From positions 124,001 to 188,000 of the forward strand of contig NZ_JAUYNV010000006.1 of the NCBI RefSeq assembly GCF_030698125.1: DNA of 64,000 bases, given 5' to 3'. Both the position numbers and the translations under genes were made by a program. This DNA is from Methyloversatilis sp. Its GTDB lineage: Bacteria > Pseudomonadota > Gammaproteobacteria > Burkholderiales > Rhodocyclaceae. Position 1 is the stretch's first letter. Each line of letters starts with the position of its first letter. Shown here piece after piece: positions 34,531-41,792 of the stretch. The notes under the pieces were generated by a model. It was not told the DNA's origin, did not search any database, and saw nothing but the letters and a program-made list of their open reading frames with translations.

Positions 34531-35037
34531 CTACTTCAGCTGTTCGCTCGCCGCCACGCCCTGATGATAGGTTTCATAGACGATGACCGGAATGCCCAGC
34601 GATCCCAGATGCTGCTCGACCAGCGGCTTCACGTCGGCCCAGTCCATGCCGCCGACCCCGGTGGCCAGTCGCGGCAACGCGATGCTGGTGACGCCGGTGG
34701 AGCCAGCGTAGCGCGCCAGCGCCTTCAATGCGTGGTTGACCGATTCCAGTGATGCCTTGCCGGGTCGCGCCGTCGGACCGTCACCCACCATTTTCTGGGT
34801 CAGCAGATTCAGGATGGTGCGTGTGCTGCCGTCGCTGTCCACGCCGGCCCAGGACCATACCGTGCCGGCCTCCAGATGCTGGCCGCGCTGCGCGTGCCGA
34901 TAGTCGCGCGCCATCGACGGCCAGCGTTCGCGCAGCGCCAGCGCGAGACCGTGGTCGAAGTGTTCCTGCGGCGCGATGCCGTGCGCAATGACCTGAGCCT
35001 GGCTCAGCAGAATGTCGCCCGTTACGTACTGGATCAT
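34531..35037 (-). CDS. Macrodomain protein (ALC1/TARG1/DarG-like)
   Basis: MIQYVTGDILLSQAQVIAHGIAPQEHFDHGLALAL...ILNLLTQK...TSIALPRLATGVGGMDWADVKPLV. Confidence 0.88.
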   Translation of the reverse strand: MIQYVTGDILLSQAQVIAHGIAPQEHFDHGLALALRERWPSMARDYRHAQRGQHLEAGTVWSWAGVDSDGSTRTILNLLTQKMVGDGPTARPGKASLESVNHALKALARYAGSTGVTSIALPRLATGVGGMDWADVKPLVEQHLGSLGIPVIVYETYHQGVAASEQLK

Positions 35038-35144
35038 CAATCTTCCCCCTGAAAGCCGCGCGCAGCATGGGTGTTGCGCGTCAGTTCCACAGTACGCGCC
35101 CGCTGCATGCGACCTTTGATCGGGGTCAACGGGGGGTGACGCGC

Positions 35145-37784
35145 TCAGCGTGCAGGGGCGGGCACGAACAGCAGCAAACCGGGTTGAAGGCGTGAGGGGT
35201 CGGGCACAAGGTCGGCGTTGGCGTCCGCGATGCGCGGCCAGAGCCGGCCGTGACCGTACATGCGCATCGCGATGCCCCACAGCGAATCGCCCGGCTGCAC
35301 GTGGTAGCGCCATCCGGGCAGCCCGGCGTCGTCGGTGCTCACCGGCACCGCCAGGTATTCGCCGGCCAGGATGAGATCGGGGTCGCTGATCGGCCGCAGT
35401 CCCGGCGCGAGTGCGCTGGCGGCGTTGTGGCGGTCGAGGATGAACGGCCATTCCTGCGCGTCGCCGAGCAGCCGCTTCGCGACGCCCTCCAGCGTGTCGC
35501 CGCGCCGCACGACATACAGCGCTTCGCCTCGATCGGCGCCGGCCGCCGGTTCGACTTTGCCGTCGACAGCGGAATCGGGCGGCGCGCCGGCGCTGGCCGC
35601 CACTTCACCCACCTGTCCGGCCAGGTGCGCGAACAGCGCGCCCAGTGCAGGGTCGGCGGCGCGCTGCGCTGCTTCCCGCAGCAGGGCGCTCAGGCGCTGC
35701 GCGTCGACGCCGAGCCACGCCGGGTCGAGCGCACCCGGATCGACCCGCAGCAGTTCCTGCAGTGTGGCCGCAGCAGCAACATCGTTGCCCGCATCCAGTT
35801 GCGCGATGGCCTGGTTGACCGCAAGGCGAGCGCGCTCGGCCCGCGTTTCGGGCGCAGCGACCGGTCTGGCCGCCGGCGCTGCGCCGGCAAGCTCACCCGA
35901 AGAGGGGGCATGGTCCGAGGCGCTGAAGGTCAGCAGTGCGATACCGATCAACAGCAACAGCAGCGCGGCGAGCGCGCCGTACAGCAGGGTACGGGTCGAA
36001 CGTGCGGCGATCGGTGCCGTTGCCGTTGCCGGTGCGGGCACGGGCACGGGCACGGGTTCGGGTGCCGGAGCGGAGGGCGCACGCTCGGGCACGGCTGCCG
36101 GCGCTGCGGGGTATGACGCAGCGGGCTCACGGACGGCCGCCGCCTCCGGTTCGGTGGCGGGCAAGGCCACCGGGATGGCGAGCGGAACCACGGCGGGCGC
36201 AGCGGGGGCGGCAATCGAGAACAGCTGCCCGTCCGGCGAGCGCATGTGCAGCGCCGGTGCGCCCCACTCGACCTCGTGTCCGCGGGCGAACAGGAAGGCG
36301 CGTGCCGACGTGAGTGCGGCGTCCACCGGCTGGCCGGCGGCGAGGTAGCGGTAGAAGTGACGCGACAGTTCGACCGCGGCCTTGTCCGGAATCGCGAACT
36401 GCATCGCGATCACCGCCGGCACGCCGCGCCGGATCAAGGTCTGCGCGATGCCACCGAACGGGTCGACCGGCGATACCGCGCCACCCATGCAACTGTTCAG
36501 GAACACCAGTCGAAGATTCGCCAGATGATTGCGCAGCAGCACGCCGAGCCGGCGCCCGGTCAGCGGATCGGGCGCGCGGTCCGGCGTGTCGCTTTCCAGC
36601 AGCAGCAGGCCGTCGCCGCCGTTGAAGTCGCCGTGGCCGATGAAATGCAGCACGTGCGGGCGCACCGTCAGGAGCGCCTCGTCCAGCCGTTCCAGCGTGG
36701 CGTTCTCCAGCCGCGTGATGCCGATCAGGCCACGTCTGGTCAGCGGCAGCAGTGCCTGATCGAGCTGCGCCAGTTCTTCGCCGATGCTCAGCGGCGCCAG
36801 ACCGCCCGGGGCGGCGAATGCGATCAGCACGCGCAGCGGCGGCGAAATGTTCAGCGTCGGCGTGGGTTCATCGACGTCGAGCCAGCGCACCACCGGCTTC
36901 ATCCGGTCGGAGAACAGGAAGTCGTCCTTCTCCGGGCTGTACAGGAATTCCCACGGCAGGCGACCGAGTTCCGGCGTGTCGGTGGTGTCGATGACGAAGC
37001 GCAGACCCTTGCCCTGCTGCGGATCGATGGCGCGCAGGCTGTCTTCGATGCCCGGCCTGAGCGTCGGTCCGAACAGCGCCCTGTAAAGCAGGGTGCCGGC
37101 GTCGCGTGCCTGTGCCGCCGTGGGCAGGCCGTTGTGGGCAAGCGCGCCCGGGGGGCGGCGCAGTGTGTCGCCGACCGGTACGCCACGCATCGCGTCCTCG
37201 ATCGCCGGTGCGTCGATCGCGCAGTCGCCGCTGAAGCCGTCAACGGCCGACGGGTTGTTGATATCCACCGTGTAGCGGCCGGACTCGGCGTAGGAAAAGC
37301 GTACCTTCAGCGAGGCATAGGCAGGCGCGGCGTCGGGCGTGTCGGACGGTGGCGTGACCGCTTCGGGTTCGGCTGGTGAATGAGACGGCAGCTGCTCGAT
37401 GTCGGCCACCGCCAGCACGACTTCGGCCGCCAGATTGCCTTCCGGCACCAGTACGGTGACCGAGCCCAGATAGGGCGGCAGGGCGTTGAACGGTGTGGCC
37501 TCGACCATCACCGGCAGCACGTGGCCGGCCGGGTCGGGCCAGCGGCGGCGGGCGATCTTCAGTTCGGTGCGGGTGTAGTGGCCTTCGGCGACCGCTGCGG
37601 GCGACAGCAGGAACACGAACAGGTCGCTGCTTTCGATGGCGCTGCGGATGCGGTCGTCGTAGTTCAGGCCGGCAGGCAGGTCTTCGCGGTCGAAGAATAC
37701 GTCGTGTCCGGCGGCCTGCAGCGCGGCATTCACGCCTTCGGCACGCGCGCGGATTTCCGACGCGTAGGACAGGAAGATCTTCAA
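35145..37784 (-). CDS. TIR-CHAT-(P-rich linker)-TM-LysM-LysM multidomain protein
   Basis: TTG start with GGAG 7 nt upstream; TIR KIFLSYASEIRARAEGVNAALQAAGHDVFFDREDL...TRTELKIA; CHAT HVLHFIGHGDFNGGDGLLLLES...LVFLNSCMGGA...GVPAVIAMQFAIPD; TM LLYGALAALLLLLIGIALLTF; LysM YVVRRGDTLEGVAKRLLG and YHVQPGDSLWGIAMRMYG. Confidence 0.9.
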   Translation of the reverse strand: MKIFLSYASEIRARAEGVNAALQAAGHDVFFDREDLPAGLNYDDRIRSAIESSDLFVFLLSPAAVAEGHYTRTELKIARRRWPDPAGHVLPVMVEATPFNALPPYLGSVTVLVPEGNLAAEVVLAVADIEQLPSHSPAEPEAVTPPSDTPDAAPAYASLKVRFSYAESGRYTVDINNPSAVDGFSGDCAIDAPAIEDAMRGVPVGDTLRRPPGALAHNGLPTAAQARDAGTLLYRALFGPTLRPGIEDSLRAIDPQQGKGLRFVIDTTDTPELGRLPWEFLYSPEKDDFLFSDRMKPVVRWLDVDEPTPTLNISPPLRVLIAFAAPGGLAPLSIGEELAQLDQALLPLTRRGLIGITRLENATLERLDEALLTVRPHVLHFIGHGDFNGGDGLLLLESDTPDRAPDPLTGRRLGVLLRNHLANLRLVFLNSCMGGAVSPVDPFGGIAQTLIRRGVPAVIAMQFAIPDKAAVELSRHFYRYLAAGQPVDAALTSARAFLFARGHEVEWGAPALHMRSPDGQLFSIAAPAAPAVVPLAIPVALPATEPEAAAVREPAASYPAAPAAVPERAPSAPAPEPVPVPVPAPATATAPIAARSTRTLLYGALAALLLLLIGIALLTFSASDHAPSSGELAGAAPAARPVAAPETRAERARLAVNQAIAQLDAGNDVAAAATLQELLRVDPGALDPAWLGVDAQRLSALLREAAQRAADPALGALFAHLAGQVGEVAASAGAPPDSAVDGKVEPAAGADRGEALYVVRRGDTLEGVAKRLLGDAQEWPFILDRHNAASALAPGLRPISDPDLILAGEYLAVPVSTDDAGLPGWRYHVQPGDSLWGIAMRMYGHGRLWPRIADANADLVPDPSRLQPGLLLFVPAPAR

Positions 37785-37882
37785 CGGCTGGCTCCGGCAC
37801 TGCCCGATGACCGGCCGGTCATCCGTTCTGGCAGGCGTCCCGAGTATAGACCGCGCACCGCCCGGCGGTGCGCGGCCGGGCG

Positions 37883-38752
37883 TCAGTTCGCGGGTGCAGC
37901 CGGATCGCCGTCGGCGGCCGGGGTTTCGATGCCGGACACGGTGGCGTGCGTGGTGCGGGCCAGATGCTGGCGGGAATGGCCGTGCGTGGGCAGCGACGGC
38001 AGCAGTTCGACCTGTGCCACGGTGCGCGGTGCGCGGGCGAGTCGGCACACCGACTGCCAGAAGGTGGTGTCGCCGATGTACACAGCGGCTTCGGACAGCT
38101 CGCCGTGCAGGTCGAGATAGCGCAGGCGCACCGGCTTGACCGCGCGGCCGGCGTCGATCGCAGCCTGGAACATCGCGGCGCGAAACGGCAGCACGCTGCG
38201 CCCGTCGGTGGTCGTGCCTTCCGGAAATACCATGACGCTGCGGCCGCAGCTCAGCGCGCTGATCAGCGTGTTGCGCACCTCGGCGGCCGAGTTGCGGCTG
38301 GTGCGCCGGATGAACACCGTGTCATTGCGCGCGACCAGCCAGCCCAGTACCGGCCAGCTGCGGATTTCGTCCTTGCAGACGAAGCCGAGCGGCGAAATCG
38401 CATTGATGACGAACACGTCCACCCAGGAAATGTGATTGCTCACCAGCAACTGGCCAGGACGCGGCAACGGCCCGTCTGCCTGCAGTTCAACGCCGAGCAC
38501 GCGCAGCAGGCGGCGCGACCACTGCGCCTTGATCTTGCGCTGCGTGCGCGCCGACACCAGCGGATAGATCAGCGCCACGCGGGCGCAGCCATCGGCCAGA
38601 TGCACGGCCAGACGCGAAATGCGCCAGCTCATGCGCAGCCCGGCGCGCAGGCCGCTGTCCGAGGCGTTGCGAACGGGCTGGCGGGCGGGCGGGCTTTCGA
38701 AGGTCAAGGCGGATGCGTCGAAAAAGTCGGCTGAGATATCGATCAGTGACAT
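37883..38752 (-). CDS. 1-acyl-sn-glycerol-3-phosphate / lyso-ornithine lipid acyltransferase (OlsA-like)
   Basis: SNHISWVDVFVINAISPLGFVCKDEIRSWPVLGWLV...VMVFPEGTTTDG PlsC motifs; adjacent to OlsB-like gene. Confidence 0.85.
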   Translation of the reverse strand: MSLIDISADFFDASALTFESPPARQPVRNASDSGLRAGLRMSWRISRLAVHLADGCARVALIYPLVSARTQRKIKAQWSRRLLRVLGVELQADGPLPRPGQLLVSNHISWVDVFVINAISPLGFVCKDEIRSWPVLGWLVARNDTVFIRRTSRNSAAEVRNTLISALSCGRSVMVFPEGTTTDGRSVLPFRAAMFQAAIDAGRAVKPVRLRYLDLHGELSEAAVYIGDTTFWQSVCRLARAPRTVAQVELLPSLPTHGHSRQHLARTTHATVSGIETPAADGDPAAPAN

Positions 38753-38803
38753 GGCGCGCGTCCCGTAAGTTGCCTGAATGTTCGTTCGTCGAGGGAATCC
38801 GGA

Positions 38804-39562
38804 TCAGGCCGCGCGCTGCACGAAGTGCCTAGCATAGCGTGCGTCCAGCCGTGACAGGGTAAGCAGCAGCGGCAGGTCGGCCGTATTGAAGTCCGGGTCC
38901 CAGGCCGGTTCGCCGCACACGTCGGCACCGGCACGCAGATAACCCTTGACCAGCGGCGGCACGACGCAGGCCGGATGCGGTGTCAGCCGTTCCAGCGGCA
39001 GGCGCACTTTCGGGAACACGCGGTACTCGGGGGGGGACATGCGCTCGCTCAGGCTGTTGAAGATCGCCGCGGCGTTGTGACCGCCGTCTGCCATGCTGAT
39101 GCTGGCGCAGCCGATCAGGTACTGGTAGCCGCCGTCGAGCAAGTAGCGCGCGAGGCCGGACCACAGCAGCGCGATCACCGCGGCGTTGTTGCGGTAGTCC
39201 GGGTCGATGCAGGAGCGGCCGATCTCGACGATCTGCGAGCGCAGGTGGTCGAGCCGCCCGAGGTCGAATTCGGTTTCCGAGTAGTAGCCGCCTGTGCGCC
39301 GCGCCGCGTCGGGCGCCAGGATGCGGTAACAGCCGACGATGCGGCCGTTGTCGTCATCGCGCACGATGAGGTGATCGCAGTGCGGATCGAAGCGGTCGCT
39401 GTCCACGCCGTGGGTCGGCGCGTCGAGCCGTGCGCCGAGTTCCTCGACAAATACGCGCCAGCGCAGTTTCTGCGCCGCCAGGATTTCGGATTCGCAATTC
39501 GCCAGCGCGACGCTGAGATTGTGCTGGGCACGCCGCTCGCGTGCGGTATTGACCTGAAGCAT
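38804..39562 (-). CDS. GNAT-family N-acyltransferase, OlsB-like (ornithine lipid synthesis)
   Basis: AAQKLRWRVFVEELGARLD...DHLIVRDDDNGRIVGCYRIL...EIGRSCIDPDYRN...LIGCASI; PF13444-type layout. Confidence 0.85.
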   Translation of the reverse strand: MLQVNTARERRAQHNLSVALANCESEILAAQKLRWRVFVEELGARLDAPTHGVDSDRFDPHCDHLIVRDDDNGRIVGCYRILAPDAARRTGGYYSETEFDLGRLDHLRSQIVEIGRSCIDPDYRNNAAVIALLWSGLARYLLDGGYQYLIGCASISMADGGHNAAAIFNSLSERMSPPEYRVFPKVRLPLERLTPHPACVVPPLVKGYLRAGADVCGEPAWDPDFNTADLPLLLTLSRLDARYARHFVQRAA

Positions 39563-39641
39563 GCAGGCGGTCTCCGTGAAGGGTCACCTTCACGATATGT
39601 GCGCAGTGTTCAGGCGATATGACGTAGCGGCGACACGACGG

Positions 39642-41420
39642 TTACAGTGGCGCCCCCCTGGGCTGGCCGAGAAAGCGCAGCGCGAGCAGCGTGATGTCGT
39701 CGGCCTGGGCGTGCGCGCCGCAGAAGGCGCGCGTGGCGTCGCGCACCGCGCCTATGGTCTGCAGCGCGCTGCCGCGAGCCGCGCCGGTAACGGCTGCGAG
39801 CAGGCGCGCTTCGCCGAATTGTTCGGCGGCTGCGTTTTCCGCCTCGGTCACGCCATCGGTATACAGCAGCAGCAGGTCGCCGCGCGCCAGCCGGGTTTCG
39901 CCGAGCGCGTAATCGATCGCCGGGTCGATGCCGGCTATCGGGTTGCGCGGTACCTTGAGCAGCGAGGCCGGCTCGCGGTGTCGCGCGATGACCGGCCGCA
40001 TGTGACCGGCATTGGCAAAGCGGAAGCTGCCGTTGCCGGTGTCGAGCAGGCCGATGAACAGGCTGGCGAAGAGCAGGCGGTCGTTGTTCAGCGCCAGCTT
40101 GCGGTTGATGCGCTCCATCACGCGTTCGAGATGGCCTTTCTGGCCCTGCTTGCGGCCGGCTTCCGAGCGCAACGTGGTCAGCGTGCGCATCATCAGCAAC
40201 GCAGCCGGCATGCCCTTGCCGCACACGTCGCCGATGGCGACGAACAGGCGCTTCTCGTCGATGAAGAAGGCATCGAAAAAATCGCCGCCCACTTCGCGTG
40301 CCTGCTGGATGGTCGCATCGCATTCGATTTCGAAGTGCTCGGGGAACAGCGGCGAGCGCATCGGCAGCATGCCGGTCTGGATCTCCTGCGCGGTACGCAT
40401 TTCCGACTGCAGGCGGTCGAGCACCATCGAGTTGCGCACGCGGTCGATCACCTGCTGATTGGTCTTGCGCATGCGCGCCGCCATCATGCCCAGAAGATTG
40501 CGCGCGACGCGCGGCAGCGGCAGCAGCTCGGAAAAGAACTGGTGGGCATCGATCAGCAGCAGGCGGGTGCCGGGTTCGGCCACCACCCAGGCCGAAGCCG
40601 GTTCACCGTCGATGATGGACAGTTCGCCGGCACATTCGCCCGCCGCGATCACGCTGTAATCGCCGCCCTGCGGGTTGTCGAGGTGCACGCGCAGCCGGCC
40701 GGTCAGCACCAGCGCCACGTGTTCATTCGATACGCCAGGCGCCAGCACAACGTACTCGTCGGGGTAGTCGCGCTGCGGGCAGTGCGCGAGCAGGCCTTCG
40801 ATCAATGCGTACGGCACGTCGCGGAACAGTTCGACGCGGGAAATGAAACCCAGCGCGCGCCGCTCGCCACCGCTGCGCCGATCGGTGCCGATGCGCGCGC
40901 CATCGCCGGTGGTCAGCGGGATGGCCGTGGCCGGGCGGCGCCGGCGTTCGATGCCGCGACGGATCGGCGCGCGGCCCTGTGCCGGCCCGGCGCGGCCAGG
41001 TCGGGTCCAGGCGAGCGTCAGCTGGTTGCGCGCGCCGACGCGCTCGTAGCTCACCTGATCGGCAAACTGGCGCACCAGGTGCACACCCAGGCCGCCGACG
41101 CTCGCCTCTTCCAGCGTGGCCGGAGCGACCGGATCGGGCAGCGCGAGCGGATCGAATTCGCAGCCATCGTCGGCAATGACCAGCTTGACCGACTGCGGTT
41201 CGAGGATGAGATCGAGCGCCAGTGTGTGCGGCGCCTCGTCGTCGAAGGCGTAGCTGACGATGTTGGCCACCAGTTCCGATACACACAGGTCGAGCCGGAA
41301 CGTGAGCTCGCTGCCCAGCTCGAAACTGTCACCCAGCGTGCGCAGCCAGGCGCTGGCGGCGGAAATCGCGCCGCTGTCGTTGATCAGCCGCAGGCTGCGG
41401 CGCGCATGGGCGCTATGCAT
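39642..41420 (-). CDS. RsbW-like HATPase + cNMP-binding + PP2C/RsbU-like phosphatase fusion
   Basis: FRLDLCVSELVANIVSYAF/IADDGCEFDP (HATPase_c_2); GECAGELSIIDGEPASAWV (cNMP-BD); GGDFFDAFFIDEKRLFVAIGDVCGKGMPAALLM and LLLYTDGVTEAEN (SpoIIE). Confidence 0.9.
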   Translation of the reverse strand: MHSAHARRSLRLINDSGAISAASAWLRTLGDSFELGSELTFRLDLCVSELVANIVSYAFDDEAPHTLALDLILEPQSVKLVIADDGCEFDPLALPDPVAPATLEEASVGGLGVHLVRQFADQVSYERVGARNQLTLAWTRPGRAGPAQGRAPIRRGIERRRRPATAIPLTTGDGARIGTDRRSGGERRALGFISRVELFRDVPYALIEGLLAHCPQRDYPDEYVVLAPGVSNEHVALVLTGRLRVHLDNPQGGDYSVIAAGECAGELSIIDGEPASAWVVAEPGTRLLLIDAHQFFSELLPLPRVARNLLGMMAARMRKTNQQVIDRVRNSMVLDRLQSEMRTAQEIQTGMLPMRSPLFPEHFEIECDATIQQAREVGGDFFDAFFIDEKRLFVAIGDVCGKGMPAALLMMRTLTTLRSEAGRKQGQKGHLERVMERINRKLALNNDRLLFASLFIGLLDTGNGSFRFANAGHMRPVIARHREPASLLKVPRNPIAGIDPAIDYALGETRLARGDLLLLYTDGVTEAENAAAEQFGEARLLAAVTGAARGSALQTIGAVRDATRAFCGAHAQADDITLLALRFLGQPRGAPL

Positions 41421-41450
41421 CGGCGCCCCCTGCAAGCACGTTGAGCGGAC

Positions 41451-41792
41451 TCAGGCGTCGAGTGCCGCGCGCGCCGTGTCGAGATCGGCGCACAAGGTCA
41501 GCAACTGGTCGACGCCGGCGGTCTGCAGCACGCGCAGTACCATGGGCTGGGCACCGAACAGCACCAGCTTGCCGCCGCGCGAGGCCTGGCCACGCGCGCC
41601 CGCCAGCAAGGTCCGGATGCCGATCGACGCGACGAAACTGACGTCTGACAGGTCGACCGCGATCTTCGCCGGATGCGTGCTGGTCAGATAGGTGAAGGGC
41701 TGGTCGAGGGTCTGCGCGCCTTCGATGTCGAGCCGGCCGTCCAGCCGGATCAGGGTGATGTCGCCATCCAGCGTCTGGCTGTCCATTTTCAT
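41451..41792 (-). CDS. STAS-domain anti-sigma factor antagonist (RsbV-like)
   Basis: DITLIRLDGRLDIEGAQTL...KIAVDLSDVSFVASIGIRTLLAGAR; Ser in FVASIGIR. Confidence 0.9.
   Translation of the reverse strand: MKMDSQTLDGDITLIRLDGRLDIEGAQTLDQPFTYLTSTHPAKIAVDLSDVSFVASIGIRTLLAGARGQASRGGKLVLFGAQPMVLRVLQTAGVDQLLTLCADLDTARAALDA

Follow-up and report, generated by a model that had tools for sequence, protein, structure and literature searches.

A predicted membrane-spanning TIR-CHAT-LysM protein of Rhodocyclaceae, a candidate single-chain receptor-effector of the bacterial envelope

The 64,000-nucleotide stretch of Methyloversatilis sp. DNA analyzed here (contig NZ_JAUYNV010000006.1, positions 124,001 to 188,000, hereafter the window) harbors a gene for an 879-aa protein that combines TIR and CHAT domains with a single transmembrane (TM) helix, a helical stretch and a pair of LysM repeats (35145..37784, minus strand, TTG start). 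We put at about an even chance the reading that this protein is a trans-envelope, single-chain receptor-effector, which would convert an envelope signal into NAD+ cleavage and/or proteolysis. New here are the accessory, single-gene nature of the locus, the replacement of the ectodomain in one allele (L026), and the existence of related TIR or CHAT heads fused through a TM to PASTA, OmpA, CBM9 or FGE domains.

The reading frame runs from 37784 to 35145 on the minus strand without interruption over 879 codons and a stop, as an initial annotation of this DNA had described. A longer mechanical open reading frame of 967 aa would run into the upstream acyltransferase gene. The TTG start is supported because orthologues align from this codon with TTG or GTG (17 of the 18 loci inspected) and never with ATG (0/18); the sole exception, L037, has CTG at the start position and an in-frame GTG three codons upstream. 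Upstream of the gene lies CTATACTC (37842..37849, minus strand), eight bases including the -10-like motif TATACT, present once in the window against 0.07 copies expected. It is also found 5′ of the orthologue starts in L029, L031, L032, L034, L035, L036 and L039. Its single occurrence in the window, upstream of the gene, together with its presence before several orthologues, suggests that the gene has its own promoter.

Pfam profiles matched TIR_2 at residues 3-97 (E 1.2e-19), CHAT at residues 228-496 (E 1.6e-31) and LysM in two repeats (E 3.6e-9), all above the curated cut-offs. On the minus strand, the TIR domain (residues 1-130) is encoded at 37395..37784, and the CHAT domain with its N-terminal strands (residues 156-525) at 36210..37319. 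They are followed by a poorly conserved Ala/Pro-rich linker (residues 526-598, 35991..36209), predicted to be cytoplasmic, and by the TM helix (residues 599-620, 35925..35990), which hydropathy and the structural model both support. The first LysM repeat (about residues 755-813, 35346..35522) has conserved Y757, G762, D763, W779, P802 and G808, and the second (residues 827-875, 35160..35306) resembles the Kbp LysM (phmmer 4e-4). The initial annotation had proposed TIR, CHAT, Ala/Pro linker, TM and two LysM repeats in one polypeptide and had made its case hinge on significant TIR and CHAT matches, and the profile and hydropathy analyses bear it out. Its positions for the catalytic residues E74 (37563..37565), H384 (36633..36635) and C432 (36489..36491) were exact, and its TM coincides with hydrophobic residues 600-618 (35931-35987). 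Absent from that description was a segment of about 80 residues between TM and LysM (residues 648-725, 35610..35843), modeled by AF2 as helices with pLDDT mostly 80-93 and predicted to be periplasmic.

The full-length AF2 model was otherwise set aside (pLDDT 61, about a third of the residues below 50, CHAT poorly modeled) in favor of a model of the head (residues 1-530) built on a deeper alignment of 67 related sequences, which reached a mean pLDDT of 90. In Foldseek searches the TIR part resembled SARM1 and the NADase AbTir (7uxu; rmsd 2.6 Å, TM-score 0.81 when normalized by target length), and the head matched the activated SAVED-CHAT 8tl0 (E 2e-12) as well as Craspase TPR-CHAT and separase. 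A phmmer alignment with 8tl0 placed the GHG motif of H384 over GHG and the NSC motif of C432 over NAC. E74, H384 and C432 are kept in all 21 full-length orthologues; the TIR Glu is present in every aligned TIR relative, and the CHAT His and Cys in every aligned CHAT relative. Both the retention of these residues and the predicted folds thus agree with what the initial annotation had put forward. With fold and conserved Glu both present, the TIR domain is predicted to be an NAD+-cleaving enzyme; with fold and dyad motifs both present, the CHAT domain is a predicted His-Cys, caspase-like protease.

In all 21 orthologues, one TM follows an Ala/Pro-rich linker, and the net charge is more positive on its N-terminal side than on its C-terminal side. 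This bias predicts that the enzymatic heads lie in the cytoplasm and the LysM repeats in the periplasm, with the protein in the inner membrane, and it favors the N-in topology proposed earlier. LysM repeats scoring above the curated cut-off thus coincide with an extracytoplasmic position indicated by the positive-inside signature, and the ectodomain may bind peptidoglycan. The role of LysM may be just to localize the protein.

Searches of 85,462 species genomes and, separately, of 200 genomes of the family yielded 21 distinct full-length orthologues. Nearly all belong to Rhodocyclaceae (Methyloversatilis, Denitromonas, Azoarcus, Cognatazoarcus, Propionivibrio, Accumulibacter and unclassified members). 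One host outside these is a metagenome-assembled genome (MAG) labeled Chromatiales. The full architecture occurs in about 10 of the 200 family genomes (about 5%). A sample of 399 genomes from the order contained, apart from the genome of the window itself, matches to the TIR domain only (about 130 residues) or, in a single case, to the CHAT part. None of 72,556 plasmid or 50,697 phage records covered 80% of the protein, and the matches there were to single domains; carriage by plasmids or phages was accordingly discarded. Among close Methyloversatilis relatives, dN/dS is 0.02-0.14 for TIR and CHAT, which are under strong purifying selection, and about 0.15-0.5 for the ectodomain. The latter is higher than in the head but below 1, and positive or diversifying selection on the ectodomain was dropped as an interpretation. 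Because 21 distinct full-length orthologues exist and both enzyme domains are strongly constrained, the architecture is far beyond chance; it is not a one-off, a point that the initial annotation had left to a survey of phyletic spread. The poorly conserved linkers would fit a degraded or inert fusion kept by chance or drift, but the number of intact orthologues, the invariant catalytic residues and the low dN/dS of both enzyme domains make that explanation highly improbable.

The gene is surrounded by ordinary metabolic and regulatory genes. Upstream are genes for RapZ, a UbiX-like flavoprotein, a STAS protein, a SpoIIE-type phosphatase, and GNAT and PlsC-type acyltransferases; downstream are a macro-domain gene, a photolyase-related gene, ApbE and glutathione synthetase. 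No defense genes flank the gene, and a defense-island context was rejected given these housekeeping neighbors; nor does a candidate CHAT substrate or antitoxin adjoin it. The GNAT and PlsC-type genes (37883-41792, minus strand) form a pair that resembles ornithine-lipid synthesis genes, is conserved in Methyloversatilis, and lies directly downstream of the genes for a SpoIIE-phosphatase/anti-sigma/cNMP-binding protein and the STAS protein.

In three congeners (G118, G153 and G183) the acyltransferase gene sits beside the macro gene and the TIR-CHAT gene is absent, leaving a clean empty site; the intergenic stretch 5′ of the macro gene in G118 and G183 resembles the 3′ flank of the window gene. 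Other genera carry the TIR-CHAT-LysM gene at different genomic positions. The empty site and the presence of the gene in about 5% of family genomes show that it is an accessory locus of one gene, gained by insertion or lost. Denitromonas-type and Cognatazoarcus loci (L029:14585-15552, minus; L030:12518-13510, plus; L031:12617-13585, minus; L034:14540-15523, minus) encode a second, different TIR-TM-periplasmic protein (MKGIFVSYRRQDS...) no more than about 6 kb from the TIR-CHAT-LysM gene. The window's own genome encodes proteins of similar layout in L002 and L003.

The neighboring macro gene (34531-35037, minus strand) encodes a stand-alone, DarG-like protein of 168 aa, which consists of a macro domain only and scores 77.6 against the DarG profile (cut-off 250); the genes adjacent to it belong to families other than DarT, arguing against a DarTG pair. 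Its upstream region contains TTGACCCCGATCAA, which resembles an FNR/Anr box. The macro protein could in principle read or erase TIR-derived ADP-ribose in a two-gene system: its gene is adjacent and on the same strand, lies downstream of the TIR-CHAT gene in five Methyloversatilis-type loci (the window, L024, L025, L026 and L036), and macro domains function in type II Thoeris (PMC12847820). However, the three congeners retain the macro gene by the acyltransferase gene without TIR-CHAT, G070 has TIR-CHAT and lacks the macro gene, no macro gene was called next to the TIR-CHAT-LysM gene in other genera, and the macro gene's own upstream region is conserved in the empty site. This pattern argues for insertion or loss of a single gene, and the macro protein was rejected as a partner; such a two-gene system is very improbable.

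The surroundings also bear on two other alternatives. The protein might be a HetF-like housekeeping regulator without an immune role, with LysM placing it at septal or polar peptidoglycan, CHAT cutting a specific regulatory substrate for division or development, and TIR acting as an assembly domain or a modest signal source. LysM proteins often mark the septal wall, the gene adjoins conserved housekeeping genes in most Methyloversatilis loci, and the CHAT region (residues 229-516 only) reaches 65.8 bits (E 2.4e-18) with the NCBIfam HetF profile. That score is a domain-level one, far under the curated cut-off of 1200 bits, and the cyanobacterial CHAT protein HetF shares the protease domain but has no TIR or LysM in a similar arrangement. 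About 95% of the family genomes sampled lack the gene, as do congeners whose locus is otherwise intact, which would not be expected of an essential division factor; the ectodomain has also been exchanged (see below). We regard a HetF-like role as unlikely.

Alternatively, a TIR messenger of the ADP-ribose type or a CHAT-cleaved regulator might elicit a transcriptional response in nonlethal envelope-stress signaling, for which DdvA offers a comparison. This transmembrane anti-sigma factor has a CHAT-like fold in the PDB and was matched by the head model (8rot, E 3.4e-8; 8rw5, E 6.9e-7), and in Methyloversatilis the SpoIIE-type phosphatase and the STAS protein are encoded a few genes upstream. 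On the other hand, no sigma-binding domain was detected in the window protein, and in Denitromonas, Azoarcus and other genera the surroundings differ and the partner-switch genes do not accompany the TIR-CHAT-LysM gene. The CHAT part of DdvA reportedly lies in the periplasm, a topology opposite to that of the window protein. Such signaling seems to us rather improbable.

The ectodomain exchange is seen by comparison with the L026 allele of another Methyloversatilis genome. Nucleotide identity is about 95% in the upstream genes and the head, drops to 51-73% (about 60% overall) from about 36225 to 35100 (~1.1 kb comprising linker, TM, helical segment, LysM and stop), and is again about 95% from the macro gene on. 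The replaced segment thus spans 35100..36225 (minus strand), from the linker to just past the stop codon. Protein identity is 97% in the head and 43-59% in the ectodomain, and dS is 0.17 in the head but 0.92 in the ectodomain, against 0.18-0.25 in the flanking genes. In trees the L026 head is the sister of the window head, and its ectodomain falls outside the four other close Methyloversatilis alleles. Tests on the tail protein tree were not significant (p-AU 0.05-0.08), and a grouping of the L026 and window tails was not rejected (p-AU 0.08); the claim of an exchange is made because of the jump in synonymous divergence and identity between normal flanks. Recombination that replaced an ectodomain cassette accounts most simply for these data, with one clear event in one MAG.

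The closest TIR relatives outside the TIR-CHAT-LysM family are mostly TIR-TM-FGE or TIR-TM-TPR-like proteins. Those in L062, L064, L065, L068 and L096-L105, in which FGE has a C-type-lectin fold, keep the catalytic Glu, and proteins of both kinds are widespread in Burkholderiales and others. The CHAT head recurs as CHAT-TM-PASTA in an Acidimicrobiales MAG (L040), CHAT-TM-OmpA×2 in Pacificimonas (L053), CHAT-CBM9 with a weaker hydrophobic helix in Ornithinimicrobium (L046), CHAT-TM-PD40 (L048) and CHAT-TM-FGE (L014); the tails of further CHAT-TM relatives are short or of unknown type. The TIR-TM-FGE proteins and the CHAT proteins with PASTA, OmpA, CBM9 or FGE share the cytoplasmic-enzyme-TM-ectodomain plan of the window protein, at about 50-55% identity for TIR and about 35-44% for CHAT, but have a single enzyme each and ectodomains other than LysM; in the literature covered they seem to be undescribed. 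LysM, PASTA and OmpA are separate families that bind peptidoglycan or its fragments. The repeated joining of a CHAT head to a wall-binding ectodomain favors a wall-related signal over chance fusion, and the five CHAT proteins, from several phyla, apparently represent an undescribed family of receptor-like caspases. TIR and CHAT also occur together in cytosolic proteins without a TM in L018, L019, L111 and L115, the first three with a STAND-like NTPase region after TIR and CHAT; these four form a second TIR-CHAT class.

The initial annotation knew of no described system with this exact architecture. We likewise found no published TIR-CHAT-TM-LysM protein in open-license PubMed Central papers, where absence is no proof, but comparable TIR and CHAT proteins do exist, namely a TIR-CHAT protein of Thiohalocapsa, the TIR-CHAT-NTPase proteins above, and the solved SAVED-CHAT and TIR-SAVED structures. 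The DGR 2 target of Thiohalocapsa PB-PSB1, a TIR, CHAT and C-type-lectin protein (PMC10907252), likewise unites both effector domains and a putative sensor in one chain; a retroelement diversifies its lectin sensor, and its locus is that of a conflict system, whereas the window protein has TM and LysM, no such locus, and no Pfam match to an FGE/CLec variable domain. In type IV Thoeris, as summarized in a paper citing Rousset 2025, the N7-cADPR made by a TIR switches on a caspase-like protease (PMC12847820). In that account the same two kinds of enzyme are divided between two proteins that communicate through a diffusible messenger, whereas the window protein is one membrane-anchored chain in which no ligand-binding domain was detected and whose gene has no adjoining partner gene; its PADLOC match to ThsB is a domain-level one of 20 bits. 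SAVED-CHAT 8tl0, the closest solved CHAT fold, and TIR-SAVED 7qqk, with a TIR effector fold, form cytosolic filaments, sense cyclic nucleotides through SAVED and have neither TM nor LysM, unlike the window protein, in which Pfam found no SAVED domain and in which the PADLOC SAVED_CHAT match is centered on the CHAT part (residues 246-556). Classification by PADLOC and NCBIfam was set aside, as these matches were domain-level only. Craspase TPR-CHAT has the same CHAT protease fold and His-Cys dyad and is activated by relief of autoinhibition (PMC9729208); unlike the window protein it depends on RNA-guided activation by gRAMP and has no TIR or membrane part, and none of the neighboring genes examined encodes a type III-E gRAMP. 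None of the compared systems has a membrane-spanning LysM arrangement.

In the receptor-effector mechanism that we propose, the helical and LysM ectodomain would be docked on peptidoglycan in the periplasm, and the head at the cytoplasmic side of the inner membrane, with its NAD+-consuming TIR and His-Cys CHAT protease, would be off by default. A change in the envelope would cluster or release the ectodomain; examples are local damage to peptidoglycan when phages enter or lyse the cell, the action of a wall hydrolase from a rival, and severe envelope stress. The TIR heads would then assemble to cleave NAD+ and/or produce an ADP-ribose signal, CHAT would be unlocked to cut cytoplasmic proteins, and the damaged cell would stop growing or die. 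We infer the enzymatic activities, the binding to peptidoglycan, the TIR-CHAT coupling, the trigger and the immune or cell-death role. An effector of immunity or cell death that senses peptidoglycan damage would fit the patchy presence, the empty site and the exchanged ectodomain.

More tentatively, and with rather less confidence, the protein may be a bacterial one-chain counterpart of Toll- or LysM-type pattern-recognition receptors, in which a peptidoglycan-facing ectodomain, swapped from strain to strain, would activate a cytoplasmic TIR NADase along with a caspase-like protease. It would then be one member of an undescribed class of transmembrane receptor-effectors that join TIR/CHAT heads to interchangeable ectodomains for wall binding (LysM, PASTA, OmpA). 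The TIR-CHAT-LysM gene is a directly testable single-gene object, with catalytic residues already defined and an ectodomain replacement supplied by nature. To our knowledge, bacterial TIR and caspase-like immune proteins mostly sense cytosolic cues such as nucleic acids, phage proteins or nucleotide signals. Animals and plants have outward-facing, membrane-spanning innate receptors; if the proposal is true, bacteria would have them too, with both enzymes linked to a wall-binding domain.
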